From positions 124,001-188,000 of the forward strand of contig JOEL01000001.1 in the NCBI GenBank assembly GCA_000720995.1: a stretch of 64,000 bases of DNA, given 5' to 3'. Under the pieces are notes generated by a model. The model was given only the letters and a program-made list of their open reading frames with translations. It was not told the origin of the DNA and searched no databases. The number at the start of each line of letters is the position of its first letter. The first letter of the stretch is position 1. Positions 36,321-60,481 of this stretch are shown in pieces. The translations under genes were made by a program, and so were the position numbers. Source of the stretch: Streptomyces celluloflavus (GTDB lineage: Bacteria; Actinomycetota; Actinomycetes; Streptomycetales; Streptomycetaceae).

Positions 36321-37022
36321 TCACAGACCGCGCTCCAGCAGGTCGGCCAGGATCAGCCGGCCGAAGGCGAGATTGCCGTGGATCGGGTCGTCGGCCTCGC
36401 ACAGTTCGGGGCGCTGGAAGCCCGTCCCGTCGGTGACGCGGGCGCGCAGATCGACGATCTCGACGCCCAGGGCGTCCAGCGCGCGCCGGACGGTCTCCTG
36501 CGCCGCGCGGAAGACCAGCGGGTCGGACTGGCCCGGCACCCGCTGCGGCGGCATCGCCGCCAGCACCCGCAGGCCCAGGCCGCGCGCATGGCGGTAGAAG
36601 GCCAGCGCGTCGCGGACCATGGCGTGGACGATGTCGTCGAACAGCCCGCTCGCCAGGAAGCCCGGTGCGAGGCCGCCGCCGCGGACCCGGTAGACCTCCC
36701 AGTTCTCGGTCGTGGCGACGAAGTGGACGCTGAAGCCGAAGGTCGACACCAGTGGCACGGTGAGCCGGTCGAGGCCGCTCACGCCCAGCTCGGCCAGGAA
36801 ACCGCGGTAGCGCGCCTCCGCCTCCGGCTTGCGGAAGACCACATCGTTCTCGCGCAGGTCGAAGAAGCCGGCGGTGAACTCGCGTCCGGCGCCGATCGGG
36901 CCGCCGTGGAACGGGATACCGGCCGCCTTCGCCGCCCGCCCGATCGGACCGGCGTGCGAGTCGCCCAGCAGCAGGAACCTGGCCCTAGCGGGGGTTGTAG
37001 TAGTCGAGTACGGCGTCGTCAC
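36321..37022 (-). CDS. SGNH-type hydrolase-like protein
   Basis: A protein of about 233 residues with ARFLLLGDSHAGPIG near residue 14 (block I with Ser nucleophile), GGPIGAGREFTAGFFD, TFGFSVHFVATTENW and a late DDPIHGNLAFGRLILADLLE carrying the Asp-x-x-His pair. That is the SGNH order, so an esterase or acyltransferase is likely. The start is uncertain: a GTG at 37022 after GGAGAGG is taken, which overlaps the GSCFA gene by 38 bp. It and the GSCFA protein belong to the same structural clan and are probably a functional pair. Confidence 0.78.
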   Translation of the reverse strand: MTTPYSTTTTPARARFLLLGDSHAGPIGRAAKAAGIPFHGGPIGAGREFTAGFFDLRENDVVFRKPEAEARYRGFLAELGVSGLDRLTVPLVSTFGFSVHFVATTENWEVYRVRGGGLAPGFLASGLFDDIVHAMVRDALAFYRHARGLGLRVLAAMPPQRVPGQSDPLVFRAAQETVRRALDALGVEIVDLRARVTDGTGFQRPELCEADDPIHGNLAFGRLILADLLERGL

Positions 37023-44800: not shown

Positions 44801-47800
44801 CCCTCGGCGACGGTGGCGAAGGCCGGTTCGGCGGCGGGGCCGCGGCCGGGCTCGGGCAGCGTGCGCCGGTAGGGGGCCACCAGCTCGGCCAGGGTGGTTT
44901 CCGTACCGTCGGCCAGCTTGTCCAGCCCCTGCCGGAACAGGTCGGCCAGCGCCGCGACCTCGGCGGGGTCGAAGTGGCCGTCGGCGTACTCCCACAGGCA
45001 GTCGAACCCGGCCGCCCGCTCGACCACCGACAGCGTCAGCGGGCACTTCGCCTCGGACGGCGCCAGCCATTCGGGGCGGGAGTCGCAGCCCGGCAGCGCC
45101 AGCGCGGTGAAGTCGGTGTTCTCCAGGACGAAGAGGAAGTCGAACGGCGGGCCGTCGGCGGGGAACTCCCGGTCGGCCAGGACATCGGCGAGCGCCACGT
45201 CCTGCCGGTCCAGCACCGCCCGCAGCCCGGCGCCCTGCCGCGTCAGCTGGGTACGCAGCTCCTCGTGCGGCGCCGCCGTCAGCGGCAGCAGCACGGTGTT
45301 GGCGAACATGCCGACGCTGCCCTCGAACTCCTGCACCGGGCGGTTGGCCACCGGGCCGGCGATCCGCGGCTCGGTGCGGCCGGTCACGCCGTACAGGCTC
45401 CACGCGAACACGCTCAGCAGCAGCTGGAAGCGGGTGAGACCCAGCTCGGCGCCCAGCCGGTCGAGGTCGGCGCGGCGGTCCGCGTCGACGGACGTGCGCA
45501 GCAGCCGGCCCTCGGCACGGGCCCCGGCGCGGATCGGCCGGAGTGGCTCCGCCGCCTCGTCCAGCCCGTCGTAGTGCGCCCGGAGCGCGGCGCGCTGGGA
45601 CAGATAGGCGGGATGGCGGAACCAGTCGGCCTGCCAGACGGCGAAGTCGAGCGGGGTCGGTACGGGGGCGCCGGCGGCCGCGCTCGCTTCCTCGCCTCCC
45701 GTCGCTTCCCGCTCTCCGCCGCCGTCCGCGCGTGAGGCGGCCGCGTAGTCGGCCGAGAGCTCGTGGAACAGGACGTTGAGCGACCAGCCGTCCACCGCGA
45801 TGTGATGCAGATGCAGCAGCAGGACACCACCGTCGTCCTGCGCCAGCCAGCACGCGTCCAGCAGCCGGGGCCGCGCCAGGTCGAAGGGGGTGGCGAAGAG
45901 CCGGTGGGCGACGGCGCGCCAGCCGTCGCCGTCCGGGGCCGGGCCGGGCTCCGTCCACGGGTCGTAGGGCTCGGCCACCGTCTGGCGCAGCCCCTCGGGC
46001 GTGGCCGCGAAGGCGGTCCGCAGCGCCGGATGGCGTGCCACCAGCCGCCGCAACGCCCCCCGCAGCGCGGCCGTGTCGACCGCGCCGCGCAGCCGGAAGG
46101 CCAGCCCGACGTTGTACGCGCACGACCGCGGCGTCCGCTGTTGCAGCAGCCACAGCCGCTGCTGCTCGGCGGTGGCCGGCGCCGAGCACGCCCCCGCCGG
46201 GGCGGGCGGCGCCGGGTAGGGCGCACCGTCACCGTCACCGTCACCGTCCACGGTTCGGCCCGCCGCGACCGCGGCGGCCAGCTGCGCGAAGTCCCCCTGC
46301 AGGACCAGCGCTTGCGGCAGTTCGCAGCCCCAGCGCCGCCGGACCTCGAAGCGCAGCCGCAGCGCCTTGAGCGAATCGCCGCCGTGGGCGAGCCAGCGGT
46401 CGCCCGGCCGCAGCCCCGCCACGCCCAGCACCTCGCCCGCCAGCTCCAGCACCTCGCGCTGCTGACCGGTGGCGGCCGGGCCGGACACCTCGGTACCCCG
46501 CCAGGGCGGGTCGGCGCGCCCCAGCAGCGCCGCCCGGTCGACCTTGCCGTTGGCGTTGAGCGGCAGCGCCTCGACCAGGTGGACCCGGTGGGGCCGCATG
46601 TACGGCGGCAGCCCGGCCGCCACATGGCGCCCGAAGTCCTCGAAGGACAGCTCGGCCCGGAGCACCAGGTAGGCCAGCAGCTCGTTCACCCCGGTCGCCG
46701 CGTCGCGCCGGGTGCAGACATACGCCTGCTGTACCGCCGGATGCGCCACGATCTGCCGTTCCAGCTCGCCCGGTTCGATGCGGAAGCCGCGGACCTTGAC
46801 CTGGCGGTCGGCGCGGCCGACGTACTCGATGTGGCCGTCGGCGTCGCGGCGCACCAGATCGCCGCTGCGGTAGTAGCGGCCGTGGCCGCCGTCGTACCAG
46901 GGCAGCCGCACGAAGCGGCGCGCGGTCTCGTCCGGCAGGTTGCGGTAACCCGCCGCCAGCGCCTCGCCGGCCAGCAGGAGTTCGGCCACCTCACCGGGCT
47001 CGGCCGGCCGATCGCCGTCGGCTACCAGCAGCGCCTCGGTGCCCGGCAGCGCCCGCCCGATCGGTACCACCGCCGCGTCGAAGTCGCGCGGGACGGGATG
47101 GCACAGCGCGAAGGTGGTGGCTTCGGTGGGCCCGTACACGTTGTGCAGTTGGGTGGTGCTCGCGGCGTTGTCGCGGTACCAGCGTTGGATCAGCCGGGCG
47201 TTGAGCTGCTCACCGCCCACCAGCACCTGGCCGGCGTCGGCGAAGCAGTCTGGCACCTTGTCGACCACCGCGTTGAACAGCGCCACGGTGATGAACAGGG
47301 TGTCGATGCGCTCGCGCCGGAGCGCGGCCGCCAGCAGATGGGGCGTCTGCACCGTCTCGTCGTCGAGGACCACGCAGCGGCCGCCGGTCAGCAGCGGTAC
47401 CCAGACCTCGAAGCTCAGCGCGTCGAACGCCGGGTTGGACAGCCAGGCGTAGCGCGCCGCCGGGCTCAGCCGGAGGTAGCCGGGCCGCGCCAGCCGCAGG
47501 ATGCCGGCGTCCCGCACCTCGACGCCCTTGGGCCGGCCGGTGGTGCCCGAGGTGTAGAAGAGGAACGAGACGGGCGGGGCGGCGAACGGTGGCGGGGGAG
47601 CGGCGTCGGTGGCCGGGCCGGTGCCGAGCAGCGCGGACACCGCCAGCGGCGCCACCCCGTCGGGCAGGCCGTCGGGCGCCGCCTCGCCGTGGATCAGCGC
47701 CACACTCGCCGAATCGGCCAGGATGTGGTGGCGGCGCTCGGGCGGGCTCTGCGCGTCGAGCGGCACCACCACCGCGCCCAGCCGCAGAATGCCGAGCATG

Positions 47801-48042
47801 GCGCAGACCAGTTGCCACGAACGCGGCAGGCAGACCGCCACCGCCTGGCCCGGCCGCACACCGTGGCGGTGCAGGGACCGGGCGACGGCGGCGCCCGCGG
47901 CGTCGAGTGCGGCGTAGTCGAGACGCCGGTCGCCGTCGACGAGCGCGACGGCGGCCGGGGTGCGGCGGGCCCGGGTGTACAGGCTGTGGGCCAGGCCGGG
48001 GGCGGCGGAGCCGGCCGGTGCGGGCGATCCGGTGTCCATCAT
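38842..48042 (-). CDS. NRPS-3: hybrid NRPS-PKS, A-PCP-C-A-PCP-KS-KR-ACP-TE
   Basis: A 3066-residue megasynthase. A1 (about 25-500) has no C domain before it, so this chain starts here; my reading of its pocket is D-A-F-F-V-G-V-T-F, a branched aliphatic (Ile/Val) type. PCP1 GGDS is near 554. C (620-1060) has an intact HHIAVDG. A2 (1085-1560) reads D-V-Q-F-V-A-H-V-V, the proline code. PCP2 GASS is near 1616. KS (1665-2085) has Cys in AACASSL, HGTGT and GHLGAAAG. No AT follows, only a linker with post-AT-like FELADYDF. KR has GGTGGIG and SSMSALFGGVGQLDYAAAN. ACP GADS is near 2762. TE has GWSFG near 2901. The expected chain is aliphatic-Pro-(beta-hydroxy ketide). Malonyl must be loaded in trans. 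ATGA overlap with NRPS-2. Confidence 0.92.
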   Translation of the reverse strand: MMDTGSPAPAGSAAPGLAHSLYTRARRTPAAVALVDGDRRLDYAALDAAGAAVARSLHRHGVRPGQAVAVCLPRSWQLVCAMLGILRLGAVVVPLDAQSPPERRHHILADSASVALIHGEAAPDGLPDGVAPLAVSALLGTGPATDAAPPPPFAAPPVSFLFYTSGTTGRPKGVEVRDAGILRLARPGYLRLSPAARYAWLSNPAFDALSFEVWVPLLTGGRCVVLDDETVQTPHLLAAALRRERIDTLFITVALFNAVVDKVPDCFADAGQVLVGGEQLNARLIQRWYRDNAASTTQLHNVYGPTEATTFALCHPVPRDFDAAVVPIGRALPGTEALLVADGDRPAEPGEVAELLLAGEALAAGYRNLPDETARRFVRLPWYDGGHGRYYRSGDLVRRDADGHIEYVGRADRQVKVRGFRIEPGELERQIVAHPAVQQAYVCTRRDAATGVNELLAYLVLRAELSFEDFGRHVAAGLPPYMRPHRVHLVEALPLNANGKVDRAALLGRADPPWRGTEVSGPAATGQQREVLELAGEVLGVAGLRPGDRWLAHGGDSLKALRLRFEVRRRWGCELPQALVLQGDFAQLAAAVAAGRTVDGDGDGDGAPYPAPPAPAGACSAPATAEQQRLWLLQQRTPRSCAYNVGLAFRLRGAVDTAALRGALRRLVARHPALRTAFAATPEGLRQTVAEPYDPWTEPGPAPDGDGWRAVAHRLFATPFDLARPRLLDACWLAQDDGGVLLLHLHHIAVDGWSLNVLFHELSADYAAASRADGGGEREATGGEEASAAAGAPVPTPLDFAVWQADWFRHPAYLSQRAALRAHYDGLDEAAEPLRPIRAGARAEGRLLRTSVDADRRADLDRLGAELGLTRFQLLLSVFAWSLYGVTGRTEPRIAGPVANRPVQEFEGSVGMFANTVLLPLTAAPHEELRTQLTRQGAGLRAVLDRQDVALADVLADREFPADGPPFDFLFVLENTDFTALALPGCDSRPEWLAPSEAKCPLTLSVVERAAGFDCLWEYADGHFDPAEVAALADLFRQGLDKLADGTETTLAELVAPYRRTLPEPGRGPAAEPAFATVAEGFARQVRRMPDAPALVTADGRSLSYAALDAHAAALAAELQDRYPLPPADDRPRCVALHFPPSVEHVVALLALARLNLTIVPLDPAYPPALLRQILDQVAPLCVLLPPGDPAALDAIAADGLPRHVVTLSTAPAPALPPHTGRRSLYTLFTSGSTGTPKGVQVPDRTLCNLLHWQRESGGLAADAVTLQFAPLSFDVSFQEIFGTLCGGGRLHLVRPGLRQDAPALLEHLETAGIERVFMPYVALQLLAEHGVHLGRHPSRLREVVTAGEQLLCTDAIRRWFGKLPGARLFNHYGPTETHVVSALRLDGDPAHWPDRPAIGRPVANAWLRVVDEAGQAVPPDCAGELLIGGPMAAPCYLGDAALDDARFVELTGLGRFYRSGDRARFDRRGLLHYLGRDDQQIKLSGHRLELGQVEAALLRHPGIVNAVVVLDGEHLVGCLQCRAAAPTPEELADHLAPLLPPHVRIARFRRLTALPRTPSGKLDRRRALRAPGEELRPRATAAPVLSDREAQLTELFEAVIGKPIGPEQRFFDAGASSLGLMRFHLRCTAELGLPLTIPDLFEHVTVRRLARFLEGRPAVRRDAAPVAAADEPVAVIGMAVRLPGARDLAAFWDLVRTGGRGIEHFDAAGGLVGARSQMAGLLAFDPEHFGISRQEARLMDPQQRHLLMSCVEALAHAGIADPAGRRVGLVAGCGENTYFQTMLREADPAQLPDGFQLALHHDKDFLATKPAYHLGLSGPALTVQAACASSLAAVHIAAGLLRQGDAEVMLAGGVLVDTLLTDGYRYRPQHIFSKDGHCRPFSDDASGTIGASGVGVVVLKPLRLARRDGDTVYAVITGSALNNDGADKLSYSAPSLAGQREVIRTALRRSGRGAADLGYVEAHGTGTQLGDPVEVGALRQAYGLTESGRCALASVKSQLGHLGAAAGVIGLVRATLAVHHGLIPPNVDFHRLNPQLGPDPAPFYIPTKARPWPAGRPRVAAVSSFGIGGTNAHLVLEAGEPAAPPGAVPCLVLSSSSAAGLRADAARVADYLAARPEAYGHVLRHLQAGRPPRRWRLAAVCADAAEAVAWLRTAAGAEVAPSEASCRAADHPARELADAWLAGRTIHWPAGPAQAPWDFPPPAFELADYDFARAAPATGPAAPGAEARLPEADWLHQPHWTRLRRAATKTTSRAPGLVVLMSATPSAPSAWRPFEAAGRRVVRVSAAASFARLADGGFQVDPADPASLRQLLDALPDAGRAGIDWLHALPLAVDGAVDEETLARARWACLDTPAALLQAVAALPDAPPLRTWWLSHRAQPVEGTVERPELGLLAGVCEVAPQECAVEGHWLDLPGDDPAGWAPELSAVLAEDAAALPRRLALRQGYWWQPTLLPVAAPAPAAPTALPAARGVHLILGGTGGIGSGIAAWLLARTDCRVILLARRPELPAGLAPWADRVTLCEADLAEEAPAAILARLDRHTHRIDGVVHAAGVAAGGLIARRDAAALRQTTAAKLHGALLVEQVVARHRPDFAVYCSSMSALFGGVGQLDYAAANGLLDGFARHRADAAETTVRLGIDWDIWREAGMARHALPTDARHRAHLAVGLDVAEGQRLFARALHLQLPQLLVSTTALEQARGFYAAPSPSPATSTAPTAAVPTSATVNPVDAATAPAAERLAERLCHWLGLDHLDPAASLYDLGADSLTLLDLIDEVKRHFGVDLELSRLSHRVSLTEVLARLAEALPDGPPGADPVAPEVWQEGHGHDLLCLVHPVGGDIQAYRSLVSALDPRLTVCLIADPALHQPDLPAWPLADRARRYHAALQARFPRETWRWRLAGWSFGAWVAVAMAAEAEAAGRPADGLYLLDPPPPGAGRHFRAYDEAQLEAVFAHELGQGGTGAPVGREARAYAERLARCCRANLASMARYEPPRLTETPGHLWLASRPVAGLPAPVSPAEQQRLWQARLPRPAGRYRLDTTHYDIVRPPHVQAVAEAINAALPPVPGTR
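46224..46247. repeat. Hexanucleotide repeat (4 copies) in the PCP1-C linker of NRPS-3
   Basis: CACCGT repeats four times in frame and encodes alternating Asp-Gly in the linker between PCP1 and the C domain. Copy number may vary without harm because it lies in a flexible linker. Confidence 0.8.
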
Positions 48043-51000
48043 GACTCCTGCGCCAGGGCCGCCCCGGTCCGCCGGGCGGCGGACGGCAGCGGACGGGATA
48101 CCGGGAAGCGGGCGAGTTCGGAACTGATCAGCGCGGCCACCCGGCGCACCTCGGCGGTCTCCAGCATTTCCCAGTGGTCGCAGGGCACCTGCTCCACCAG
48201 GAGCTCCGCGTCCGCGCGGCGCCGCCAGAAGGCGCGCACCGCCCGCAGATGGTCGGTGTCCGGCCCGTCCCCGACGGCCTGGAGCAGCACCAGCCGGGCC
48301 GATGACGACGGCGCCGGATAGTCGCGCATGGTCAGCCGGTTGTGGTTGTAGATGTGGAAGTACTGGTCGATCTGCTGGTCGTCGATACCGGGATACATGC
48401 CGTTGAACTTGACGAGCTTCTCCCGGAACTCGGCCATCTCCACCGGTTCGATCAGGGCCCGCTGCGCCGGGTCGTCGGTGCCCTGGGTGTCGAGCAGCAC
48501 CACGCTCAGCTCGGTGTGGCCGGCCGACGCCAGCCGGCGCCCCATCTCATGGGCGATCAGGCCGCCGTAGGAGAGCCCGGTGAGGACCAGCGGCCCGTCG
48601 AGCAGCGGCTCGATGAGCCGCAGATACGCCTCGGCCATGGCCTCGACCGTGGGCAGGGACGTCTCGCCGGGGTTCACCCCGGGCGACTGGATGCCGTAGA
48701 CGCCGTACTCCTCCGGCAGCGCCTTGGCCAGTGACAGATAGCAGAAGGCGGTGCCGCCGGCCGGGTGGACGCACACCACCCGCCGCCGGCCCTCGCCCGC
48801 CCGGAACTCGATCAGATTGCCGGGGGGCCGGCCCGAGGCGCCCTGCCGCAGCCGCCCGCCCAGCTCCTCGATGGTCGGGTGCAGCAGGATGTCGCGGATC
48901 GGCAGGGTCTCACCGAACGCCTCGCGGATGGCGTGGGACATCTTGATGGCCGAGATGGAGCTGCCGCCGATGTCGAAGAAGCTGTCGCGGATGCCGATGT
49001 CGGGTTGCAGCAGCAGCCGCTGCCATATCTGATAGAGCGTCAACTCGATGTGGTCGCGCGGACTGGCCAGATTGACCTGGACGGACCCGCCCTCCCGCGC
49101 CCGCAGCAGCAGCGCCGCCCGGTCGAGTTTGCCGTTCGCGGTCCGCGGCAGGTGCGGCAGCTCCACGAAGAGCGCCGGGATCATATAGCCCGGCAGCCGC
49201 TGCGAGAGCGCGGTGCGCCAGGCGCCCGGCGGCAGCGGCGGCGCCGCGCCCCGGCCGACGCCGGCCACCAGCCGCGGCTCACCGGCCGCGTCGTGGTCGA
49301 CCAGTACCGCCGCTTCCCGCACCCCGGGCTCGTCGAGCAGCGCCGCCTCGATCTCGCCCAGTTCGATACGGAAGCCGCGCAGCTTGACCTGGTGGTCGCG
49401 GCGGCCGAGGTACTCGGCATCGCCGTCGGGCAGCCAGCGGGCCAGGTCGCCGGTGCGGTACATCCGCGCCCCGTCGACGAAGGGATCGGGCAGGAAGCGC
49501 TCGGCGGTCGGGCCGGGACGCCCCAGATAGCCGCGGGCGAGTCCGGCGCCGCCCAGATAGATCTCGCCGGCCACCCCGACCGGTACCGGTTCGAGCCGCT
49601 CGTCGAGCAGGTAGAGGCGGGTGTTGGCCAGCGGCCGGCCGATCGGGCACTGCCGCGCCAGCGGCCGCGGGTCGGGATAGCCGGTGCTGTAGACCGTGGT
49701 CTCGGTCGGCCCGTAGCCGTTGAGGACGCGCAGGCCCGGGAGTAGTTGGCGGATGCGGTGCAGGCCCTCCTCGGGCAGCGGCTCCACCCCCACCAGCAGC
49801 TGGCGCAGCGCCAGCCCGGCCAGGCGCGCCGCGGGCGCTTCGTCGATCCACTTGACGAAGGCCGGCGGCAGATACGCCTGCGCGATGCGGTGGGTGCGCA
49901 GCCAGTCCATCAACGCCTCGGGATCGGCGCGGAGTTCCTCCGGCACCAGGTGCAGTACGCCGCCGCTGGTGAGCGGCAGCAGGATCTCCTGCACCGACAC
50001 GTCGAAGCCGATGCTCGACCACAGCGCCGCCGCCTCACCGGGTACCGCGCCGAACTCCGTCAGCCAGTGGTCGAACAGGTTGGCCACGCTGCCGTGCGTC
50101 ACCGCCACGCCCTTGGGTCGGCCGGTCGAGCCCGAGGTGTAGATCACGTAGGCCAGACCGGCCGGGTGGCACGCGATGGCGGGCGCGTCGTCGCACCGTC
50201 CCTCGGCCTCGACCGCGACGAGCGAGTGCCGGCCGGGCGGCGGCGCGGCGGCCTCGCTCAGCACCAGGGCCGGTCCGGCGTCCGCGACCATGCCCGCCAG
50301 CCGTTCCGCGGGCAGGGCGGGGTCGAGCGGCAGATAGGCGGCACCGGCCTTGAGGATGCCCAGGATGCCCACCACCAGCTCCGCCGAGCGGCCCGCGTGC
50401 AGGCCCACCACCTGGTCGCGGCGGACCCCGCGGGCGACCAGGGCCTGCGCCAGCCGGTTGGCGCGCCGGTCCAGCGTGGCGTAGTCCAGCCGGTCGTCGC
50501 CGCAGGCCAGCGCCAACTGGCCGGGACGCGCGCGCACTTGGGCCGCGAAGCGCTCGGCCAGACCGGCCGGCGCGGTGCCGTCCCGTCCGGTGGCGTTCCA
50601 GTCGTGGAGCTGGCGCTGCCGTTCGGCCGGGCCGAGCAGCCGCAGGGCGCCGACCGGCCGCGCCGGTCCGGCCGCCACCTGCTCCAGGAGCCGTACGTAG
50701 TGGCCGGCCATCCGGGCGACGGTCGCGGCGTCGAACAGATCGGTGTTGTACTCGAAGGAGAGCTCCAGCCCGTCCGCGTCCTCGGACACCTCGACCGCGA
50801 GGTCGAACTTGGCGGCCCCGGCGTGGGTCGGCAGCGGCTGCATGGTCAGGCCCGGCAGTTCCAGCCGGCCGCGCGGCATGTTCTGCAGCACCAGCATCAC
50901 CTGGAAGAGCGGTGAATGGCTGGTGTGCCGCTCCGGCCGGAGCGCCTCGACCAGCTGGTCGAAGGGCGGGTCCGGGTGGGCGTAGGCGTCCAGGACGTGG

Positions 51001-52157
51001 TCGCGCACCTGCGCCAGCAGCGCCTCGAAGGACTGCTCCGGGTCGAGGTGCTGACGGATGACCAGGGTGTTGACGAAATGCCCGATCAGATCCTCGGCCT
51101 CGCGGTGACCGCGGTTGGCGAAGGGCGTGCCGACGCAGATGTCGTCCTGGCCGCTGTAGCGCCACAGCAGCACCGACAGCGTCGCCATCAGCGTCATGAA
51201 CAGCGTCGCCCGGCCCGCCTGGCCCGCCGTGTGCAGCCCGCGGGTGACCTCCGCGCCGACCGTCACGGCGTGGCGCTGTCCCCGGTAGCGCTGCACCGCG
51301 GGGCGCGGCCGGTCGGTGGGCAGGGCCAGCAGGGTGGGCGCACCGGCGAGCCGGCCGGTCCAGTGGTCGAGCTGGCGCGCCAGTGCCTCCTCGTCCAGCT
51401 GCCGCCGCTGCCAGAGCGCGTAGTCGGGGTACTGGACGGACGGCTCGGCCAGCGGCGAGGGCAGCTCCCGCGCGTAGGCGCCGTAGAGCGCGCCGATCTC
51501 CCGCACCAGGATGCCGATCGACCAGCCGTCGGCCACGATGTGGTGGACGTTGAGCAGCAGGCGGTGCTCGTCGGCGGCCAGTCTGAGGAGGCGGCCGCGG
51601 AAGAGCGGCCCGGCGCTCAGGTCGAACGGCACCCGGGCGTCGGCCTCGGTCTCCCGCCGGGCCCGCGCCGGCCGCTCGGCCGCCGGCAGCGCGCCGAGGT
51701 CGGTGACCGGCAACGCGACCGGTCCGGCGGGCCGTACGCGCTGCCACGGTTCGCCGTCGACGCTGCCGAAGACGGTACGCAGCGCCTCATGACGGCGCGT
51801 CAGTTCGGTGAGGGCGCGCGTCAGCGCCGCCACGTCGAGGGCGCCCTTGATGTCGATGGCGGCCGGATTGTTGTAGAAGGGATTGCCCGGCGCCAACTGG
51901 TCCAGGACCCACAGCTGACGCTGGGCGAAGGACAGCGGCAGCGCAGCCGCCGGGTCCGGCCGGCGGACCAGGGTCCCGTCCGCGTCGCCGTCCTGGCCGG
52001 TCAGGATGGCGATCAGCTGGCGCTTGTGGTGCTTGAGCGCCGCCAGCAGCTCGGGGGTGAGGAAGCCGCGCGGCGCCTTGCAGCGCAGCGTGTCGCCGTC
52101 GACGACCAGGGTGATGGCGTGCCGGTTGAAGAGATCCAGCAGTGCGTAGGCGTTCAA
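48039..52157 (-). CDS. NRPS-2: docking domain-C-A-PCP-TE
   Basis: A 1372-residue module. The N-terminus (NAYALLDLFNRHAITLV then LKHHKRQLIAIL) is a TubC-type docking domain, which begins right at a TTG overlapping the NRPS-1 stop as TTGA; the longer frame upstream is discarded. C carries HHIVADG near residue 207. A reads D-V-Q-Y-L-G-G-V-Y, which I cannot assign to a substrate. PCP GGSS is near 1064. TE (about 1110-1350) has VCVHPAGGTAFCY and nucleophile GLSYGG. It takes the chain from the oxidase-ended NRPS-1 and releases it or passes it on. A second TE ends NRPS-3, so this TE may esterify onto another intermediate rather than simply hydrolyse. Confidence 0.9.
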   Translation of the reverse strand: MNAYALLDLFNRHAITLVVDGDTLRCKAPRGFLTPELLAALKHHKRQLIAILTGQDGDADGTLVRRPDPAAALPLSFAQRQLWVLDQLAPGNPFYNNPAAIDIKGALDVAALTRALTELTRRHEALRTVFGSVDGEPWQRVRPAGPVALPVTDLGALPAAERPARARRETEADARVPFDLSAGPLFRGRLLRLAADEHRLLLNVHHIVADGWSIGILVREIGALYGAYARELPSPLAEPSVQYPDYALWQRRQLDEEALARQLDHWTGRLAGAPTLLALPTDRPRPAVQRYRGQRHAVTVGAEVTRGLHTAGQAGRATLFMTLMATLSVLLWRYSGQDDICVGTPFANRGHREAEDLIGHFVNTLVIRQHLDPEQSFEALLAQVRDHVLDAYAHPDPPFDQLVEALRPERHTSHSPLFQVMLVLQNMPRGRLELPGLTMQPLPTHAGAAKFDLAVEVSEDADGLELSFEYNTDLFDAATVARMAGHYVRLLEQVAAGPARPVGALRLLGPAERQRQLHDWNATGRDGTAPAGLAERFAAQVRARPGQLALACGDDRLDYATLDRRANRLAQALVARGVRRDQVVGLHAGRSAELVVGILGILKAGAAYLPLDPALPAERLAGMVADAGPALVLSEAAAPPPGRHSLVAVEAEGRCDDAPAIACHPAGLAYVIYTSGSTGRPKGVAVTHGSVANLFDHWLTEFGAVPGEAAALWSSIGFDVSVQEILLPLTSGGVLHLVPEELRADPEALMDWLRTHRIAQAYLPPAFVKWIDEAPAARLAGLALRQLLVGVEPLPEEGLHRIRQLLPGLRVLNGYGPTETTVYSTGYPDPRPLARQCPIGRPLANTRLYLLDERLEPVPVGVAGEIYLGGAGLARGYLGRPGPTAERFLPDPFVDGARMYRTGDLARWLPDGDAEYLGRRDHQVKLRGFRIELGEIEAALLDEPGVREAAVLVDHDAAGEPRLVAGVGRGAAPPLPPGAWRTALSQRLPGYMIPALFVELPHLPRTANGKLDRAALLLRAREGGSVQVNLASPRDHIELTLYQIWQRLLLQPDIGIRDSFFDIGGSSISAIKMSHAIREAFGETLPIRDILLHPTIEELGGRLRQGASGRPPGNLIEFRAGEGRRRVVCVHPAGGTAFCYLSLAKALPEEYGVYGIQSPGVNPGETSLPTVEAMAEAYLRLIEPLLDGPLVLTGLSYGGLIAHEMGRRLASAGHTELSVVLLDTQGTDDPAQRALIEPVEMAEFREKLVKFNGMYPGIDDQQIDQYFHIYNHNRLTMRDYPAPSSSARLVLLQAVGDGPDTDHLRAVRAFWRRRADAELLVEQVPCDHWEMLETAEVRRVAALISSELARFPVSRPLPSAARRTGAALAQES

Positions 52158-55100
52158 ATCTCGATGTCTTCCATCTCGTCCCGGCCGGAGGTGTGTGCGG
52201 CGTGCCCGGCCGGTGCGGCCGCGAACGCGTCCGGTCCGCCCGGCGGGCGGCGGCCGCCGACCATCGAATAGACCAGCCGGTGCGTGGGCCCCAGCTCCAG
52301 CAGCGGATCGAGCTGGGCGGTGTCGAGCGAGCCGATACCGCACAGGCCCAGCCCCTGCTCCGGCGCCGTCATGGTCAGCAACTGCCCCATGGCACCGGCC
52401 TCGATCTGGCAGAAGCCGAGGCTCCGGTCGCCGTAGAGCGGCTGGATCGCCGCCAGTTCGGCCACCAGGAACAGCGCGAACGCCGCCGCCTCGAACAGCG
52501 GCCGGTTGACGAAGTAGTCGTAGGCGTCGGGGCTCAGCGTGCGGCCCCGGCCCAGCGCCACCAGCCGGTGCCGGCCCGGGTCGTAGTAGTAGGCGCCGCC
52601 CGCCACCCCGGCCACCCGCCCCGGCTTGACGTAGAGATACGCCTGCACCGGATAGCTGCCGCCGGCGGAGCCGTAGAGATATTTGCGCCCGCCGTTCAGC
52701 TCGTACTGCGACAGACAGGCCAGCAGCCCGGCCAGCGCGGCGGCGTCGACGGGCTCGCCGCCGAACTGCCGCACCGAGCGGTAGTCGGCACAGCGGCGGG
52801 CGAAGGCCGGATCGGCGGGCGCCGGCAGGGCGAGGCCCGGTACGTCGTCGCCGAAGCTGCGGCCGCCGCGTCCGCGCGCCGTGAACTCCTTGCGGGCCGC
52901 CGGGTCGTCGAGCACAGCGCCGCTATCGGCCGCGCCGGCCGCGCCGCCCACGCCCGCCGCGGCACGCTGCGCCTGCGCGGCGATGTCCTGCTGCCGGACG
53001 TGCTCGCGGTACATGCCGAGCAGATCGGCCAGGGTCGGCTGCCGCATCAGCTGCGCCAGCCGCGGCCGGAAGCCCAGCTCACCGGCGAGCGCGTTGCCGA
53101 TGCGCACGATGTCGATCGAGGTGGCACCGAGGTGCAGCAGATTCGCGTGCGGTGCGATCTCCGCCCGGTCGAGAACCTTCTCGACGGTCGCGACCAGACG
53201 GCGCTCGGCCGGATCGTCGAGCACCGGCGCGGCCGCCTCCGGCCCTCCCGCCGGTGCGGCCTCCGGCGCCGGCTCGGGCAGCCGGCCCCGGTCGACCTTG
53301 CCGTTGGCCGACAGCGGCAGCGCATCGAGGAAGGTGAACGACGCGGGCACCATGTACGCCGGCAGCTTCCGCGACAGGTACCGGGCCAGCGCGGCGCCGT
53401 CGGCCTCCGCCTCACCCGTCACCACATAGGCGGCCAGCCGCTTGTCGCCCTGGGCCGCGCCCAGGAGGCGCAGTACGGCGCTCTCCACCGCCGGATGGGT
53501 TTCGAGCGTCGCCTCGATCTCGCCCAGCTCGACGCGGTAGCCGTGCACCTTGACCTGGCTGTCCTCCCGGCCGAGGAACTCGATGGTGCCGTCGGGCAGC
53601 AGCCGGCCCAGATCGCCCGTGCGGTAGAGCCGCTCGCCGGTCGCCGGGTGGCGTACGAAACCGGCCGCGGTGGCCGCCTCGTCGCGCCAGTAGCCCCGGG
53701 CGAGGCCGGCCCCGCCGATGTAGAGCTGGCCCGGCACCCAGGTCGGACGGGGGCGCAGCGCATCGTCGAGGACGTGGCACCGCTGGTGCCTGAGGGGTTT
53801 GCCGTAGGGGATGCTGTGCCAGGCCGGGTCCACTTCGCCGATCGGGTGGTGGATCGACCAGATCGATGCCTCGGTGGCGCCGCCCAGGCTGTCGATCCGC
53901 ACCGCGGGCAGCAGTCCGCGCAGCCGTCCCGGCAGCGTCAGGGGGATCCAGTCGCCCGACAGCATGGCCAGCCGCAGCGACGGCGGCAGCGGATGGCCGC
54001 CCTCGGCGTACTCGACCAGCATGCCCAGCAGCGCCGGCACCGAGTTCCAGACGCTGACGTCGTGGGCCCGCAGCAGTTCGAGCCAGTGGGCCGGGTCGCG
54101 GGCCGGTTCGGGCGCCACCGTCACCACCGCCGCACCGGCCGCGAGCGTGCCGAAGATGTCGTACACCGACAGGTCGAAGTGGAGCGCGGAGAGCGCCAGC
54201 ACCCGGTCGGCGGGTCCGACGGCGAAGCGCTCGTTGATGTCGAGCAGGGTGTTCACGGCGCCGCGGTGGTCGATCATCACGCCCTTGGGCGTGCCGGTGG
54301 AGCCCGAGGTGTAGATCACGTAGGCGAGATCGGTGCCGGACCGTGCGACCGGCTGCCAGGCCGGCCCGCCCTCCCCGCAGGCGGCCCGGTCGACCACCAG
54401 GCACTCGACGTCCCCGGGCAGTTCCGGCGCCGCCGGCCGGTCCGGCCCCACCAGGGCCAGCCGGGCCTCGGCCCGCTCCAGGAGATGCGCCACCCGCTCG
54501 GCCGGCAGCTCCGGATCGACCGGCAGATAGGCGCCGCCGGCGTAGAGGACGGCCAGAGTGCCGGCCACCTGCTCCCAGCCGCGGTCCATCAGCACCGCCA
54601 CCAGCTCACCGGGCCGCAGACCACGGGCCTGGAGACGGCCGGCCAGCCGCTGCACCGCGCGGCGCAGCATGCCGTAGCTCAGCCGCCGGTCGGGCGAGAG
54701 CACCGCGGGCGCCTCCGGCGTCTCCCGCGCCCGGCGGTCGAACAGCTCGTGCAGCAGGGGCTGCGCCGGCGGCTCCGGCAGGGCCGGTGCGAAGCGGGCG
54801 ACGGGCAGCAGCGCGTCCGGTGCGGCGTCCCAGGCTTCGGGCTCCGCGAGCCGGGTCAGCAGCGCGCAGTACGCGGTGAACATCTCGGCCACCATGCCCG
54901 CCGGGAACAGTTCGTCGATGCTGTCCCAGTTGAAGTGCAGCCGGCCCTCGGACTCCATGAGGGTGTGGTCGATCCACACCTGCGGGGTCTGGGTGATGCC
55001 GTGGACGGTCGTGCCGCCCAGCCCCGCCGCCAGCCCGCGGCCGTCCGCCTCGGGCGCCAGCTCGCTCAGCGTGCTGTTGAACACCACCGGCATGGCGGTC

Positions 55101-58100
55101 TGGCGGGTGCCCCGGGACTGCGACAGCTCACGGGCGACCTGCACCCCGCTCACCGCGGCGTGGTCGATGTCCTGCCACAGCCGCTCCTGCACCGCGCGGG
55201 CCTGCGCGGCGAAGCCCTCCTCGGCCGTCACCTCGACATCCAGCAGGACCAGCGAGGTGAAGTCGCCGATCACCGCGTTGATGCCGGGGTGCAGCGGCAG
55301 CCGGTTGAACAGCGGCAGGCTCAGGGTGAACCGCGGCCGACGGCTCCACCGCGCGAGCACCTGGGCGAAGGCGGTCAGCAGCAGCACCGAGGGGCTCAGC
55401 CCGTGCTGGGTGGCGAGGTCCTTCAGCCCGCTCCAGCGCGCGGCCGGCAGGACCTGCTCGTAGCGGGTGAAACGGGGCCGTTCGACGGTCTCGGGCCGGC
55501 GCACCAGCGGCAGGTCCGGCGCCGGCGCCAGTTCGGGTGCCCGCTGCCGCCAGTAGCGCAGCGCGCGGGCGTACCGCGGCGTCTCGCGCAGCGCCCGCTC
55601 GGCCAGCACATAGTCGCGGAAGTCCACCTCCAGGGGCGGCAGTTCGGCGTCCGGGTCGGCGTAGCGGTGCATCAGCTCGCGTTCCAGGAGCCGGCTGCTG
55701 GCGGCGTCGACGATCAGCGCGTCCAGGCTGATGTGCAGGCGCACTTCGTCGTCGAGCAGCGTCAGCGCGAACTCGAACAGCGGCCAGCGGCCGGCGTCCA
55801 GCAGCTGGTGCGACATCCGCTCGCGGATCTCCGCCAGCCGCGCCTCGGCGGTGGCCGGGTCGAGACCGCGCAGGTCCACGCGCGGCATCCGGTAGGGCGG
55901 CACCGTCTCCAGCACCTGCTGGGTGCCGTCGCCGTGGAACACCGCGCGCAGCATGTCGTGACGGCCGATCAGCCCGTTGAGCGCCGAGGTGAAGCGCGCC
56001 TCGTCGAACTCGCGCACGGCGATCTCGCGGTAGCCGTGCGCGCCGACGCCGCCCAGTTCGATGGCGGACTCGCGGCCGACCCAGTACGCCTGCTGGATGT
56101 CGGTCAGCGGGAAGGGCCGGCAGCGATCCGCCGGGGCGGGGGTGAGCTGCGGGAAGACGAAGGCCGCCGCGGCGTCGCCCGCACCGCGCGCCACCTCGGC
56201 CGTGAGGTCGGCCAGCACCGGATTGCGGAACAGGCTGCGCAACGACAGCTGTGCCGACATGCGCTGGTTGACCAGGTGGATCAGCCGGGTCGCCAGCAGG
56301 GAGTGGCCGCCCAGGGCGAAGAAGTCGTCGTGCACGCCGACCCGCTCACGGCGCAGCACCTCGGCCCAGATGGCGGTCATCCGTGCCTCGCGCCCGTTGC
56401 GCGGCGCCTGGTAGGCGGCGTCGCCCGCCTGCCGGCCGGGCGCCGGCAGCGCGCGCCGGTCGAGTTTGCCGTTCACCGTCAGCGGCAGCCGCTCCAGCGC
56501 CACCCAGCGGGTCGGCACCAGATGCTCCGGCAGCCGCAGCCGCAACTGCTCGCGGACGGCCCGGACGGTGACCTCGCCGACGAGGTAGCCGACCAGATGC
56601 CGGTCGCCGGGCGCGTCCTCGCGCACCAGCACGGCCGCCTCGCGCACCCCGGCCACCTGCTGGAGCACGCTCTCGACCTCGCCCGGCTCGACGCGGAAGC
56701 CGCGCAGCTTGACCTGGTCGTCGGCGCGGCCGGCGAAGTCGACGGTGCCGTCGGCCAGCCGGCGCGCCAGGTCGCCGCTGCGGTACATACGGGCGCCGGG
56801 CCCGGCGAAGGGATCGGGCAGGAACTTCTCGGCGGTCAGCGCGGGCCGGCCGAGGTAGCCCCGGGCCAGGCTCACCCCGCCGATGTACAGTTCGCCGACC
56901 GTGCCGAGGGGCACCGGCTCCAGCCGCGCGTCGAGGACGTAGAGCCGGGCCTGGGCGATGGGCCGGCCGATCGGTGGCAGGGTCGGCCAGTCGGCGGCGT
57001 CGGCGCAGGTCAGGACGTGCTGGCTGACCACATGGGTCTCGGTCGGGCCGTACTGGTTGTAGAGCCGGGCACCGCCCAACCCCGTCAGGCAGGCGCGCAG
57101 TTCGTCGCTGACGCGCAGCGCCTCACCGGCGGTGACGATCTCGCAGCCGAGCGGTGGCCCCGCGATGGCATCGTTGTCGAGGACGGCGATCTGCTGGAGC
57201 ACCGCCGCGGGCAGGAACGCGCGCTGTACCGCCTGATCGGCGAGGAAGTGCCGCAGCGTACCCAGTTCGCGGTGGCGCTCCTCACCCATCAGCACCAGGG
57301 TGGCGCCCTGGCAGAGGGTGCTCCAGATCTCCTGGAACGAGACATCGAAGCTGACCGAGGCGAACTGGAGCACCCGGGCCGGTGCCGGGCTGTCGGGCGC
57401 GGCGTGGTGCAGCTGCCAGTGGATCAGGTTGTCGAGGCTCCGCCAGGTCTGGGCCACGCCCTTGGGCCGGCCGGTCGAGCCGGACGTGTAGATCACATAG
57501 GCGAGGTGATCGGGCAGGCGCGGTACCACCGGGTTGGACGCGGGCGCCGCCGCCCAGGCCGCCTGATCGCTGTCGAGGCAGAGCACGGGCGGTGCGTCGG
57601 CCGGCAGGGCCGGGCGCAGACCCGCCTGGGTCAGCAGCAGCGCCGGCGCGCTGTCCCGCAGCATGTGGGCGAGCCGCTCGGCCGGATAGGCCGGATCGAG
57701 TGGCACATAGGCACCACCGGCCTTCAGGATCGCCAGCAGCCCCACCACCATCTCCAGCGAACGCTCGGCGCATATCGCCACCAGGGTGTCGGGGCCGACA
57801 CCGCGCTCCGTGAGGTGATGGGCCAGCCGGTTGGCCCGCGCGTTCAGCTCTCCGTAGCTCAGCGACCGCCCCTCGCAGACCGCCGCCACCGCCGTCGGCG
57901 CGGCCGCCGCCCGAGCCTCGAACAACGCCTGCACGGTCCGGCCGGCCGGGAGCGGCGCGGTGTCGTCCGGCCACGTCACCAGCTCGCCGCGTTCCCGCTC
58001 GTCGAGGAGGGGGAGGGCCGCCGCCGCTTCGCCGGGCCGCTCCGCCATAAGTGCCAGCACCCGCCGCAGATAGCGGGCGTGGCGCTCCACCGTCCCCGCG

Positions 58101-59407
58101 TCGAAGAGCGCACTGGCGTAGTCCAGGGTGCCGACGATGCGGCCGTCCTCCTCCGCCAGCGACAGCGTCAGATCGAACTTGGCCACGGTGTACGGGGATT
58201 CCAGCGGCGTCACCTCGACATCCGGCAGCGTCACCTCGCCGACCTCGTTGTTCTGCCAGGCGAACATCACCTGGAACAACGGCGTGTGCGCCAGATCGCG
58301 GACCGGGTTGACCAGCTCCACCACCTGCTCGAACGGCAGGTCCTGGTGCTCCATGGCCGCCAGGGACACCCCGCGTACCCGCTTGAGCAACTCGGCCACC
58401 GTCGGCGTACCGGAGAGATCGATGCGCAGCGCCAGAGTGTTGACGAAGAAACCGATGAGGTCTTCGAGTTCGGCGCGGCGGCGATTGGCGATGGGCGTAC
58501 CGATCACCACATCGCTCTGCCCCGAGAGCCGCGACAGCACCAGCGCCCAGCCGGTCAGCAGCGTCATGAACAGGGTGCTGCCGTGGCGCCGGCTGAAATC
58601 CTTGAGTGCCGCGGTCAGTTCCGCGTCGAAGACGAGCCGCAGCTGTCCGCCGCGGTAGTCCTGTTCGGCCGGGCGCGGCCGGTCGGCCGGCAGGGCGAGC
58701 AGTGCCGGGGCGTCCGCGAGGGCCTTGCGCCAGTAGGCGCCCTGGCGGGCCGGTCCGCCGTCGGACAGCCACTGCCGCTGCCAGGCGGCGTAGTCGGCGT
58801 ACTGCACCGGCAGTGGCGGCAACGGGTCGGGTTCGCCCCGCCGGAACGCCGCGTAGAGCGCGCCGATCTCCCGGGTCAGCACACCCATCGACCAGCCGTC
58901 CGACACGATGTGATGCAGTGTCAGCAGTAGTACCTGGTGGTCCTCGGCCAGCGTCACCAGACGGCCGCGGGCCAACGGTCCCCGGGCCAGGTCGAACGGC
59001 GCGGTGGCCTCCTCCCGCTGAAGGGCGGCGAGCGCCGCTTCGGCATCCGCCTCGCCGGTCAGGTCGTGGACCTGCAGAGGGAAGCCCGCACCGGGCGGGT
59101 CGATCCGCTGGCAGGCCGCACCCGCCGCGGGGATCAGCCGGGTACGCAGGACCTCGTGGCGGGCGACCAGGGTGTCCAGCGCCCGCGCGAGCGCCGTGCG
59201 GTCCAGAGGTCCGCGGAGGCGGACCGCCTGCGGCATGTGGTACGCCGCGCTCGCGCCCTGCATCTGCGCCAGGAACCACAGCCGCTGCTGCGCGAAGGAG
59301 AGCGCCAGCGGCGCGGCGCGGTCCGCCAGCGGCACGATCGCGGTCTGCTTCGGCGTCGCCCGGGGCTGCCGGGGGGTCACATCGCGGAACGTCTGATTCG
59401 TCGGCAA
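52154..59407 (-). CDS. NRPS-1: C-A-PCP-Cy-A(Cys)-PCP-Ox, thiazole-forming
   Basis: A 2417-residue two-module NRPS. C has HHIVSDG near residue 165. A1 reads D-V-Q-F-V-A-Q-V-V, close to the proline code with Gln for His. PCP1 GGHS is near 1030. Cy has FPLTDIQQAYWVGR and the D-x4-D motif DALIVD near 1230. A2 reads D-L-Y-N-L-S-L-I-W, the exact cysteine code. PCP2 ATSIDIV is near 2096. After an Ala-rich linker, an oxidase domain of the nitroreductase/SagB type (RRCADYRSVRQFGG, YYYDPGRHRLV, IEAGAMGQLLTM) ends the protein. It should form a thiazoline and oxidise it to a thiazole. The start is a TTG after AAGGG; an in-frame stop lies 10 codons upstream. First gene of the operon. Confidence 0.92.
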   Translation of the reverse strand: MPTNQTFRDVTPRQPRATPKQTAIVPLADRAAPLALSFAQQRLWFLAQMQGASAAYHMPQAVRLRGPLDRTALARALDTLVARHEVLRTRLIPAAGAACQRIDPPGAGFPLQVHDLTGEADAEAALAALQREEATAPFDLARGPLARGRLVTLAEDHQVLLLTLHHIVSDGWSMGVLTREIGALYAAFRRGEPDPLPPLPVQYADYAAWQRQWLSDGGPARQGAYWRKALADAPALLALPADRPRPAEQDYRGGQLRLVFDAELTAALKDFSRRHGSTLFMTLLTGWALVLSRLSGQSDVVIGTPIANRRRAELEDLIGFFVNTLALRIDLSGTPTVAELLKRVRGVSLAAMEHQDLPFEQVVELVNPVRDLAHTPLFQVMFAWQNNEVGEVTLPDVEVTPLESPYTVAKFDLTLSLAEEDGRIVGTLDYASALFDAGTVERHARYLRRVLALMAERPGEAAAALPLLDERERGELVTWPDDTAPLPAGRTVQALFEARAAAAPTAVAAVCEGRSLSYGELNARANRLAHHLTERGVGPDTLVAICAERSLEMVVGLLAILKAGGAYVPLDPAYPAERLAHMLRDSAPALLLTQAGLRPALPADAPPVLCLDSDQAAWAAAPASNPVVPRLPDHLAYVIYTSGSTGRPKGVAQTWRSLDNLIHWQLHHAAPDSPAPARVLQFASVSFDVSFQEIWSTLCQGATLVLMGEERHRELGTLRHFLADQAVQRAFLPAAVLQQIAVLDNDAIAGPPLGCEIVTAGEALRVSDELRACLTGLGGARLYNQYGPTETHVVSQHVLTCADAADWPTLPPIGRPIAQARLYVLDARLEPVPLGTVGELYIGGVSLARGYLGRPALTAEKFLPDPFAGPGARMYRSGDLARRLADGTVDFAGRADDQVKLRGFRVEPGEVESVLQQVAGVREAAVLVREDAPGDRHLVGYLVGEVTVRAVREQLRLRLPEHLVPTRWVALERLPLTVNGKLDRRALPAPGRQAGDAAYQAPRNGREARMTAIWAEVLRRERVGVHDDFFALGGHSLLATRLIHLVNQRMSAQLSLRSLFRNPVLADLTAEVARGAGDAAAAFVFPQLTPAPADRCRPFPLTDIQQAYWVGRESAIELGGVGAHGYREIAVREFDEARFTSALNGLIGRHDMLRAVFHGDGTQQVLETVPPYRMPRVDLRGLDPATAEARLAEIRERMSHQLLDAGRWPLFEFALTLLDDEVRLHISLDALIVDAASSRLLERELMHRYADPDAELPPLEVDFRDYVLAERALRETPRYARALRYWRQRAPELAPAPDLPLVRRPETVERPRFTRYEQVLPAARWSGLKDLATQHGLSPSVLLLTAFAQVLARWSRRPRFTLSLPLFNRLPLHPGINAVIGDFTSLVLLDVEVTAEEGFAAQARAVQERLWQDIDHAAVSGVQVARELSQSRGTRQTAMPVVFNSTLSELAPEADGRGLAAGLGGTTVHGITQTPQVWIDHTLMESEGRLHFNWDSIDELFPAGMVAEMFTAYCALLTRLAEPEAWDAAPDALLPVARFAPALPEPPAQPLLHELFDRRARETPEAPAVLSPDRRLSYGMLRRAVQRLAGRLQARGLRPGELVAVLMDRGWEQVAGTLAVLYAGGAYLPVDPELPAERVAHLLERAEARLALVGPDRPAAPELPGDVECLVVDRAACGEGGPAWQPVARSGTDLAYVIYTSGSTGTPKGVMIDHRGAVNTLLDINERFAVGPADRVLALSALHFDLSVYDIFGTLAAGAAVVTVAPEPARDPAHWLELLRAHDVSVWNSVPALLGMLVEYAEGGHPLPPSLRLAMLSGDWIPLTLPGRLRGLLPAVRIDSLGGATEASIWSIHHPIGEVDPAWHSIPYGKPLRHQRCHVLDDALRPRPTWVPGQLYIGGAGLARGYWRDEAATAAGFVRHPATGERLYRTGDLGRLLPDGTIEFLGREDSQVKVHGYRVELGEIEATLETHPAVESAVLRLLGAAQGDKRLAAYVVTGEAEADGAALARYLSRKLPAYMVPASFTFLDALPLSANGKVDRGRLPEPAPEAAPAGGPEAAAPVLDDPAERRLVATVEKVLDRAEIAPHANLLHLGATSIDIVRIGNALAGELGFRPRLAQLMRQPTLADLLGMYREHVRQQDIAAQAQRAAAGVGGAAGAADSGAVLDDPAARKEFTARGRGGRSFGDDVPGLALPAPADPAFARRCADYRSVRQFGGEPVDAAALAGLLACLSQYELNGGRKYLYGSAGGSYPVQAYLYVKPGRVAGVAGGAYYYDPGRHRLVALGRGRTLSPDAYDYFVNRPLFEAAAFALFLVAELAAIQPLYGDRSLGFCQIEAGAMGQLLTMTAPEQGLGLCGIGSLDTAQLDPLLELGPTHRLVYSMVGGRRPPGGPDAFAAAPAGHAAHTSGRDEMEDIEI

Positions 59408-60481
59408 AGCTGGCCCTTTTCCTCTGCGGGAGGGTTATTCATAGGGGTGGCTGACGGTGTGTGAGCGTGTGCCGCGGACCCCGGAGCGCCGTCCCGTACG
59501 GGGGAGCGGCAGGGGGCAGGCGCGGAACGGGTCAGCCGGTACGGGGCAACGGGCGTGGGGCGTGCGGTATCGGCTCAGGCGTTGCGGGGAGGATGTGCCG
59601 GGAGGCACCGGGGCCGGGGCGTGCCCGCTGCGGGCACGGACTCGCCTGCCGGTGGCCGGTGTCGAAGTCCCGCTCGCGCCAAGGCGTGACGCCGAGGCTC
59701 TTGCGGGAGGGGGAGATGGCCGGGTCATGCGGGGGTGCCGCAGCCCGTCCGCGATCGGTGGGGCGCTAGGTCCGTGGGTGACCGGTGGAGCGGTCGGCCA
59801 CGGAGCGGGTTAATCGGCCCCGCGGCCGGCAACGGACCTGACGATTCCGGACGGTCGGGAAGCGGGACCCGTACCGCTGGCCGGCACCGGTTCGCCCACC
59901 ACTGCGAGTAACCATGGTGCGCACCCACTTCCTTGACTGCCGGACCGACAGACCCCTTGAGACGGCACCCGGTATCCCGGGCGTCCTGCTGGTCACTTGG
60001 TCAACGCCCTGATGATCGAACAAGCCCTCAGAGTGTGTCAATGGTCAGAAGGACAGACTCCCGGCGCGGCCCCGTGGCGCCGCCGGATCTCGCCCACCTG
60101 CACGTTCGCCGCTCAGGAGGGCGGGGGAACCCGGTCCGGACACGTCGGTTCCGGTGTGCCGCGGGGGCCTGGGCTCCCGCCGACCGTCCCCGGGCGCCGC
60201 GGAGTTCGGACGGCTATTCCGGTCGATGGCGGGCGAGAAAAAGAGCGAGAAAGAGCGAGGAGGGGGCAGGGGGATCGCGGAACGGCAGGAGAAGGCACCC
60301 AGAGTCAGCAAAGGGCGAGAAAGTGTGTCAAGAAGCAGAGAAGAGCGATCAAGTTATTGCAAATGTCGGTCATGATCGGGCAGATTGAGGGCGCCCGATC
60401 GGCTTGGAGTCACTCCTCAGCCGCCGCACCCGGGAAAGCGCCCCCAACGGGCCTCCCCACAACGGTGACAGGACGTGTTCG
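59408..60481. other. Divergent gene-free region (1074 bp) between NRPS-1 and NRPS-4
   Basis: No frame here has coding character or a ribosome site that persuades me. The right third (about 60228-60350) is strikingly purine-rich and lower in GC, with repeats of GAGCGAGAAA and GGGCGAGAAA. Promoters for both NRPS transcripts and operators for a pathway regulator should lie here; no regulator gene is in the cluster part of the window. Confidence 0.6.

Follow-up and report, generated by a model that had tools for sequence, protein, structure and literature searches.

The closest described relatives of the gene cluster considered here are those for the chitinimides (chm, Chitinimonas koreensis), the pseudotetraivprolides (pip, Pseudomonas entomophila), and the rimosamides (rmo, Streptomyces rimosus); articles given by PMC number are represented here by excerpts. 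Chitinimide A contains Met, Arg, two dehydrobutyrines (Dhb), Ser, Phe, a Pro-derived ring, and a thiazole (Thz), and chitinimides C and D carry an additional detoxin-type part (PMC8302735). For pseudotetraivprolide, the Pro-thiazole fragment was confirmed by synthesis, the thioesterase (TE) of PipB makes an ester, experiments identified FabD as the trans-acting acyltransferase (AT) and PipDFG as acetylating, and the Pro-thiazole peptide also contains Met, with Met sulfoxide derivatives (PMC12828459). The acyl group of rimosamide is isobutyryl. Gly is incorporated into rimosamide by RmoG, a module of condensation (C), adenylation (A), and thiolation (T) domains (PMC9205934). Pseudobulbiferamide A is Phe-ureido-Dhb-Gly-Arg-Pro-Thz-Gln (PMC10616845), and pseudovibriamide B, which is similar to detoxin, acts as an antidote to blasticidin S. 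The window, a stretch of 64,000 nucleotides from Streptomyces celluloflavus (contig JOEL01000001.1), very probably holds a thiazole-type cluster of the detoxin- and rimosamide-like (DRL) family, in which a peptide line of two nonribosomal peptide synthetases (NRPS-1 and NRPS-2) and a hybrid NRPS/polyketide synthase (PKS) line (NRPS-3) make one joined product.

The genes and domains that carry this reading are listed below, with Cy for heterocyclization, Ox for oxidase, KS for ketosynthase, KR for ketoreductase, and ACP for acyl carrier protein.

52154..59407, minus strand: NRPS-1, C-A(Pro)-T-Cy-A(Cys)-T-Ox, with a TTG start and the tail EMEDIEI
57980..59305, minus strand: C domain of NRPS-1, 79% identical to the C domain of the C-A-T-TE protein of genome G048 (same genus) and 70% to genome G710, which bears a chitinimide-like cluster
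56438..57940, minus strand: first A domain of NRPS-1, code DVQFVAQVV (taken as Pro), all nine letters identical to the Pro module of G710
53297..54742, minus strand: second A domain of NRPS-1, code DLYNMSLIW (taken as Cys)
52259..52780, minus strand: Ox of NRPS-1, a terminal oxidase of the nitroreductase family, related to the BmdC oxidase
48039..52157, minus strand: NRPS-2, TubC_N docking domain-C-A(DVQYLGGVY, probably Met)-T-TE, with a likely TTG start and a TE proposed to be ester-forming
38842..48042, minus strand: NRPS-3, A(Val/Ile)-T-C-A(Pro)-T-KS-KR-ACP-TE, of the RmoI/DetG/PipC type
60404..63496, plus strand: single module C-A(Gly)-T of the RmoG type, code DILQLGVIW (taken as Gly), divergent from the peptide line

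The original prediction had read the Cy domain, the Cys-coded A domain, and the terminal oxidase of NRPS-1 as giving a Pro-thiazole unit, with which both the domain order and the codes agree, if DVQFVAQVV and DLYNMSLIW are, as we presume, codes for Pro and Cys. It had also let NRPS-2 add one residue and bear a TE, and the arrangement C-A-T-TE confirms this. The Cy domain was distinguished from a C domain by its motif in the translation; visual inspection likewise served for the active-site motifs of the carriers, Cy, KS, KR, and TEs, and the solved-structure relatives of the Ox region are the BmdC oxidase and one nitroreductase. The tight overlaps noted earlier measure four bases each, TTGA at 52154-52157 between NRPS-1 and NRPS-2, and 48039-48042, where NRPS-3 starts within the stop of NRPS-2. 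The start of NRPS-2 is most likely the TTG at 52157 that gives the TTGA overlap, and a GTG at 52343 was rejected in its favour. The tail EMEDIEI of NRPS-1 is likely the docking partner of the TubC_N domain of NRPS-2, and relatives have EMEEIEI, EMEEVEI, or EMEQVEL ahead of a docking-domain gene. NRPS-3, with the A codes DAFFLGVTF (Val/Ile) and DVQFVAHVV (Pro), has the hallmark of the DRL lines, a hybrid A-T-C-A-T-KS-KR-T-TE without AT, and the domain scan gave no AT match in it.

Clusters holding homologues of both NRPS-1 and NRPS-3, a search for which had been proposed, were found in G710 and in Parachitinimonas caeni. The window and G710 are colinear, both running from the Pro-module C domain through Ox, docking domain, NRPS-2, NRPS-3, a type II thioesterase (TEII), PipG, PipF, TauD, and SpcZ. 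Most domains share 61-79% identity, and a part of SpcZ shares 55%. The window's order is colinear with Parachitinimonas caeni, too. A Pro module, Cy-A(Cys)-T-Ox, and then C-A-T-TE is the arrangement of a thiazole-type line. Among 11 DRL-bearing genomes and records, two of which (G003 and G056) look like one genome, the Ox region had a strong match (58-68%) in three, namely Parachitinimonas caeni and two metagenome-assembled genomes (MAGs) of Pseudonocardiales and Streptosporangiaceae, whose pieces lie on separate contigs and are assumed to belong together. Five others had hits of no more than 42%, and no hit occurred in three plasmid records. S. aurantiacus was covered by the Ox query of its genome, which gave no strong match. 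The PipF query of the genome contigs gave six loci. In the genome G504 (loci L038 and L039), NRPS-3 stands ahead of the C-A-T-TE part, two TauD matches occur, and the last A code, DMKELGMVD, is not of the Met type.

That both lines serve one thiazole-bearing detoxin relative, as the original prediction had it, is well supported by the order conserved with the chitinimide-like cluster, by the ester-forming TE of pseudotetraivprolide, and by the accessory genes. Each line has its own TE, and relatives release free peptides (pseudovibriamide A, pseudotetratide) beside the joined product, so that NRPS-1 and NRPS-2 might make a thiazole peptide and NRPS-3 an unrelated detoxinine compound. Two such separate products are highly improbable given that the gene order is conserved between phyla and that the corresponding TE forms the joining ester in pseudotetraivprolide.

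A joined product would be assembled as follows. The Gly module (60404-63496) would make an acyl-Gly, to which NRPS-1 would add Pro and Cys, the latter being converted to the thiazole by Cy and Ox. The EMEDIEI tail of NRPS-1 would dock on TubC_N of NRPS-2, which would add a further residue, probably Met. NRPS-3 would join Val/Ile and Pro with one malonate unit, supplied in trans, probably by FabD, and reduced to a beta-hydroxy acid. The TE of NRPS-2 would then esterify the beta-hydroxyl with the tetrapeptide, the TE of NRPS-3 would release the product, TauD would hydroxylate the pyrrolidine, and SpcZ, PipF, and PipG would acetylate. What the sequences show directly is the order of genes and domains, the A codes, the motifs, the homologies, and the linkage kept among relatives. 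We infer the chemical steps, the ester joining, the role of FabD, and the acetylation by homology with the published relatives, and from the sequences the place of Gly before Pro, Met as the last residue, and the docking pair. The earlier account lacked the likely Gly module, the likely Met, and the probable ester made by the TE of NRPS-2. The predicted product is an O-acetylated acyl-Gly-Pro-Thz-Met ester of Val/Ile-detoxinine. With isobutyryl and Val the computed formula is C33H50N6O10S2 with [M+H]+ 755.310, and the Ile analogue has 769.326; identical formula bookkeeping reproduces the published miramide A, C30H45N3O9.

The assignment of the last residue draws on G710, and the Met of the Pro-thiazole peptide of pip agrees with it. 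Ahead of its Pro module, G710 has the A codes DAFTIAAVW, DFWNIGMVH, DVWHVSLVD, DFWNIGMVH, and DVADVGAVD, which we take to stand for Phe-like, Thr, Ser, Thr, and Arg, followed by Pro and Cys. As these seven codes fit the remaining chitinimide residues, the eighth residue of G710 would by elimination be Met. The code DVQYLGGVY is identical in the window and the Pseudonocardiales MAG and the same in G710, where it was read from two pieces, and because the window has the code of G710 its NRPS-2 probably also selects Met.

The module at 60404-63496 is likely an RmoG-type Gly module, as judged from its domains and from the code DILQLGVIW, which presumably specifies Gly. The domain scan gave no TE match in it, and no further NRPS follows over about 15 kb. 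Its C domain has a close match in two of the 12 genomes and records tested, the window's own and that of G048 (70%), and the others have at most 34% or no match at E ≤ 1e-30. The Gly modules of the window and G048 are 70-77% identical and both lie divergently beside the peptide line, the order in G048 being the divergent Gly module, an adjoining C-A-T-TE gene, and then the NRPS-3 homologue. With its RmoG-like module and the match in G048, the window therefore looks like a combination of a front end as in the rimosamides with a middle of the chitinimide type.

Several points weigh against this reconstruction. On reading, the ends of the Gly module and of NRPS-1 revealed no docking element that would link them, although no dedicated search was made, and the nine-letter A-domain codes are short signatures. 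The link between G710 and the chitinimides is drawn from A codes and residue composition. In addition, the first C domain of NRPS-1 could be a starter domain, as its relative in MirG is said to be; it would then acylate Pro with a short fatty acid, leave the Gly module unused, and lead to an acyl-Pro-Thz-Met-ester. In detoxin-type loci the C-A-T-TE proteins do begin with related C domains, and that of MirG is termed a starter domain in the literature. A starter function is nevertheless unlikely here, because the Gly module without TE match adjoins the peptide line both in the window and in G048, because RmoG incorporates Gly in rimosamide, and because two C domains at internal positions in G710 share 70% identity with this one.

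The joined product with acyl-Gly at its front would be completed by the accessory genes, which follow NRPS-3 in this order:

38047..38814, minus strand: TEII, between NRPS-3 and the PipG homologue
36985..38028, minus strand: GSCFA protein, PipG/RmoJ homologue
36321..37025, minus strand: PipF/RmoK homologue with the motifs GDSH ... DDPIH, its start inferred from relatives
35348..36307, minus strand: TauD dioxygenase, PipE/RmoL homologue
34264..35190, plus strand (opposite to its neighbours): SpcZ/RmoM homologue, start uncertain
33350..34099, minus strand: second type II thioesterase, after the convergent SpcZ gene, cluster membership unsure

The published rmo cluster has the corresponding set rmoJ (GSCFA), rmoK, rmoL (dioxygenase), and rmoM (SpcZ), and the counterparts in the pip cluster are PipG, PipF, PipE, and PipD (PMC12828459). 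The TEII is matched in G710, Parachitinimonas, and the Pseudonocardiales MAG and partially in G504, and was found in none of the five Streptomyces lines with unbroken sequence from NRPS-3 to PipG, a count outside which G048 stands, its contigs breaking between these genes. The PipF/RmoK reading frame comprises 268 residues as called, and its conserved part begins near 37025. The window's TauD, a gene typical of DRL loci, is 60-76% identical to the TauD of the others. The SpcZ gene has 39-58% identity to a gene beside other DRL loci and 28% in G504, with zero match in L004 and L006 among the loci compared; record L003 labels its copy SpcZ, and by elimination SpcZ corresponds to PipD. The PipDFG-type acetylation set (GSCFA/PipG, PipF, SpcZ/PipD) is thus present, with catalytic motifs read by eye. 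An open reading frame (ORF) of 407 residues on the minus strand at 34096-35319 is repetitive and has no Pfam or NCBIfam match, and was rejected in favour of the SpcZ homologue on the plus strand. For the second thioesterase only matches of 33-37% were found, in five other DRL loci. Just past the cluster, 30658-33164 holds a gene for a hybrid-cluster (prismane) protein and a divergent Crp-type regulator. In the DRL line of the Streptomyces mirabilis NBC_01248 plasmid (L004, 17950-28075), TauD is present and PipG, PipF, and SpcZ gave no match; in a different S. mirabilis strain the miramide cluster, as published, includes homologues of all three, and the product of the L004 line may stay unacetylated.

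In common with the chitinimides, as described in the excerpts, the predicted product of the window contains a Pro ring, a thiazole, and probably Met, and both clusters have a hybrid gene of the detoxin type and one resembling tauD. Over the whole line it is matched by G710, whose codes fit the chitinimide residues, chm itself being known here by description. It differs from the chitinimides upstream, where five modules (Phe-like, Thr, Ser, Thr, Arg) are missing and the separate Gly module takes their place. A chitinimide proper would have upstream Phe-ureido-Thr-Ser-Thr-Arg modules, while NRPS-1 opens at the Pro module and the 15 kb beyond it contain no NRPS other than the Gly module. Common to the window and the pip cluster, likewise taken from its description, are two NRPS and one NRPS/PKS, heterocyclization and oxidation domains, and PipDEFG. 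The excerpts describe an Arg-first peptide and the N-acetyltransferase PipH for pip, whereas an Arg code is absent from the window line, and the scan of 19 window ORFs, a part of all its ORFs, gave no match to an acetyltransferase. The pseudobulbiferamides and pseudovibriamides are ureido heptapeptides; their likeness, drawn from the compounds, lies in the Arg-Pro-Thz unit of pseudobulbiferamide A and the detoxin resemblance of pseudovibriamide B. With the rimosamides, for whose cluster G048 stood in, the window has in common the RmoG-type C-A-T module for Gly, the RmoI-type hybrid, and homologues of RmoJ to RmoM. RmoH is a single C-A-T-TE protein, whereas its counterpart halves in the window are split by the following block:

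50591..57998, minus strand: extra block A(Pro)-T-Cy-A(Cys)-T-Ox//docking-C, without counterpart in the thiazole-free relatives compared, with approximate edges that both lie in C-A linkers

The C-A-T-TE protein of G048 (1338 residues) marks this split. Its C domain resembles that of NRPS-1 as listed above, and its A and TE domains are each 76% identical to NRPS-2. Compared over 40 residues at a time, it matches NRPS-1 at 62-90% identity as far as residue 441 and at 22-62% from residue 461, past which G710 retains 40-85% to NRPS-1; against NRPS-2 the values are 35-60% over residues 121-581 and 60-92% from residue 601. In the alignment this switch falls within the C-A linker, and by eye S. aureoverticillatus and S. 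cattleyicolor switch in the same way. Because both switches fall in C-A linkers, the extra block spans one such linker to the next, and a single event from linker to linker, an insertion or a deletion, turns the design of the window into that of G048 or the reverse. The A code of the G048 protein (L057, 14716-16194), DCFFLGGVF, differs from DAHFLGGLY of the detoxin-like lines and from the Met-type code, and this protein may use another residue.

The block could have been introduced recently, if the window lineage once had a rimosamide-type line and took up the Pro-thiazole block together with TEII and TauD out of a cluster of the chitinimide type. The sharp switch of similarity at both C-A linkers would fit such a chimaera, as would the TauD of the window, which is 76% identical to G710 and 67% to G048. 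But the block shows no greater identity to G710 (66-76%) than the core does (61-78%), and since both diverge alike from G710 the idea of a block transfer is weakened. The core tree of 12 clusters and 4095 columns, in which some rows are partial, G504 forms a long branch, and an outgroup is absent, has seven thiazole-free lines together on a branch without the window, with weak support (54/30). In the TauD tree these seven lines form a starred clade with the window outside. Both trees speak against a recent chimaera, and because they separate the thiazole-free lines from the window, one older gain or loss would be enough. The KS tree places the window with the seven thiazole-free lines (83/90), outside G048 and two others (93/92), and the C-domain tree places it with the Streptomyces lines (100/99) as opposed to G710, Parachitinimonas, and G504. 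A constraint that makes the window and G048 sisters, as a chimaera would have it, was not rejected (p-AU 0.125), and in the PipG tree the two MAGs of the thiazole type fall beside three lines free of thiazole (83/91, not starred), against a clean split, so that the genes tell no single simple story. Altogether we regard the recent chimaera as doubtful.

A single gain or a single loss of the block suffices to explain the best core tree, which, having no outgroup, fits either direction. A tentative reading, to which we give slightly less than even weight, is that the window is a living intermediate linking the long lines of the chitinimide type to the short ones of rimosamides and detoxins, that RmoH/DetF-type C-A-T-TE proteins are natural fusions of the C domain of the Pro module with the A domain of the Met module by one deletion, from C-A linker to C-A linker, in a thiazole-type ancestor resembling the window, and that the product is an undescribed rimosamide-chitinimide hybrid, acyl-Gly-Pro-Thz-Met-O-(Val/Ile-detoxinine acetate). 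Our confidence in it was lowered by a small step because the PipG tree does not fit a clean split.

The Ox domain was seldom matched. In overlapping samples, in which five (genus), six (phylum), and 13 (family) first-look candidates per genome were scored so that all counts are lower bounds, it was matched at E ≤ 1e-60 in at least one of 382 genomes of the genus and at least one of 296 of the phylum, both times the window's own, and at E ≤ 1e-40 in at least two of 150 of the family, its own and one at 39%. Ox matches were found in three of 300 genomes in the order of Parachitinimonas, itself included, and PipF in three of 51 same-genus genomes, its own included. A Cy-A-T-Ox query matched 2399 plasmid records, three of which have their best place at 60-80% identity, and among the 15 matches listed none is named as a DRL line. 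The original prediction was right in substance, as far as the support reaches, and wrong on novelty, having taken the thiazole as new to the detoxin family while chitinimides and pseudotetraivprolides already have one. Thiazole-bearing detoxin relatives are already in print, and the new part is the combination of building blocks. Papers judged by titles and the starts of abstracts showed no thiazole-bearing DRL from actinomycetes, and earlier descriptions may contain one. Actinomycete relatives may also have been seen before, as an antiSMASH listing includes a chitinimide-similar region (58%) in Micromonospora reichwaldensis (PMC11960110, excerpt).

In the literature examined the thiazole-bearing DRLs are proteobacterial, and here the full line is found in a Streptomyces together with a rimosamide-type Gly module. 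The predicted product supplies a precise mass, and the natural recombination is located at the C-A linker, a boundary that is used and debated in NRPS engineering. The cluster connects two branches of a family known for protecting bacteria against blasticidin S.
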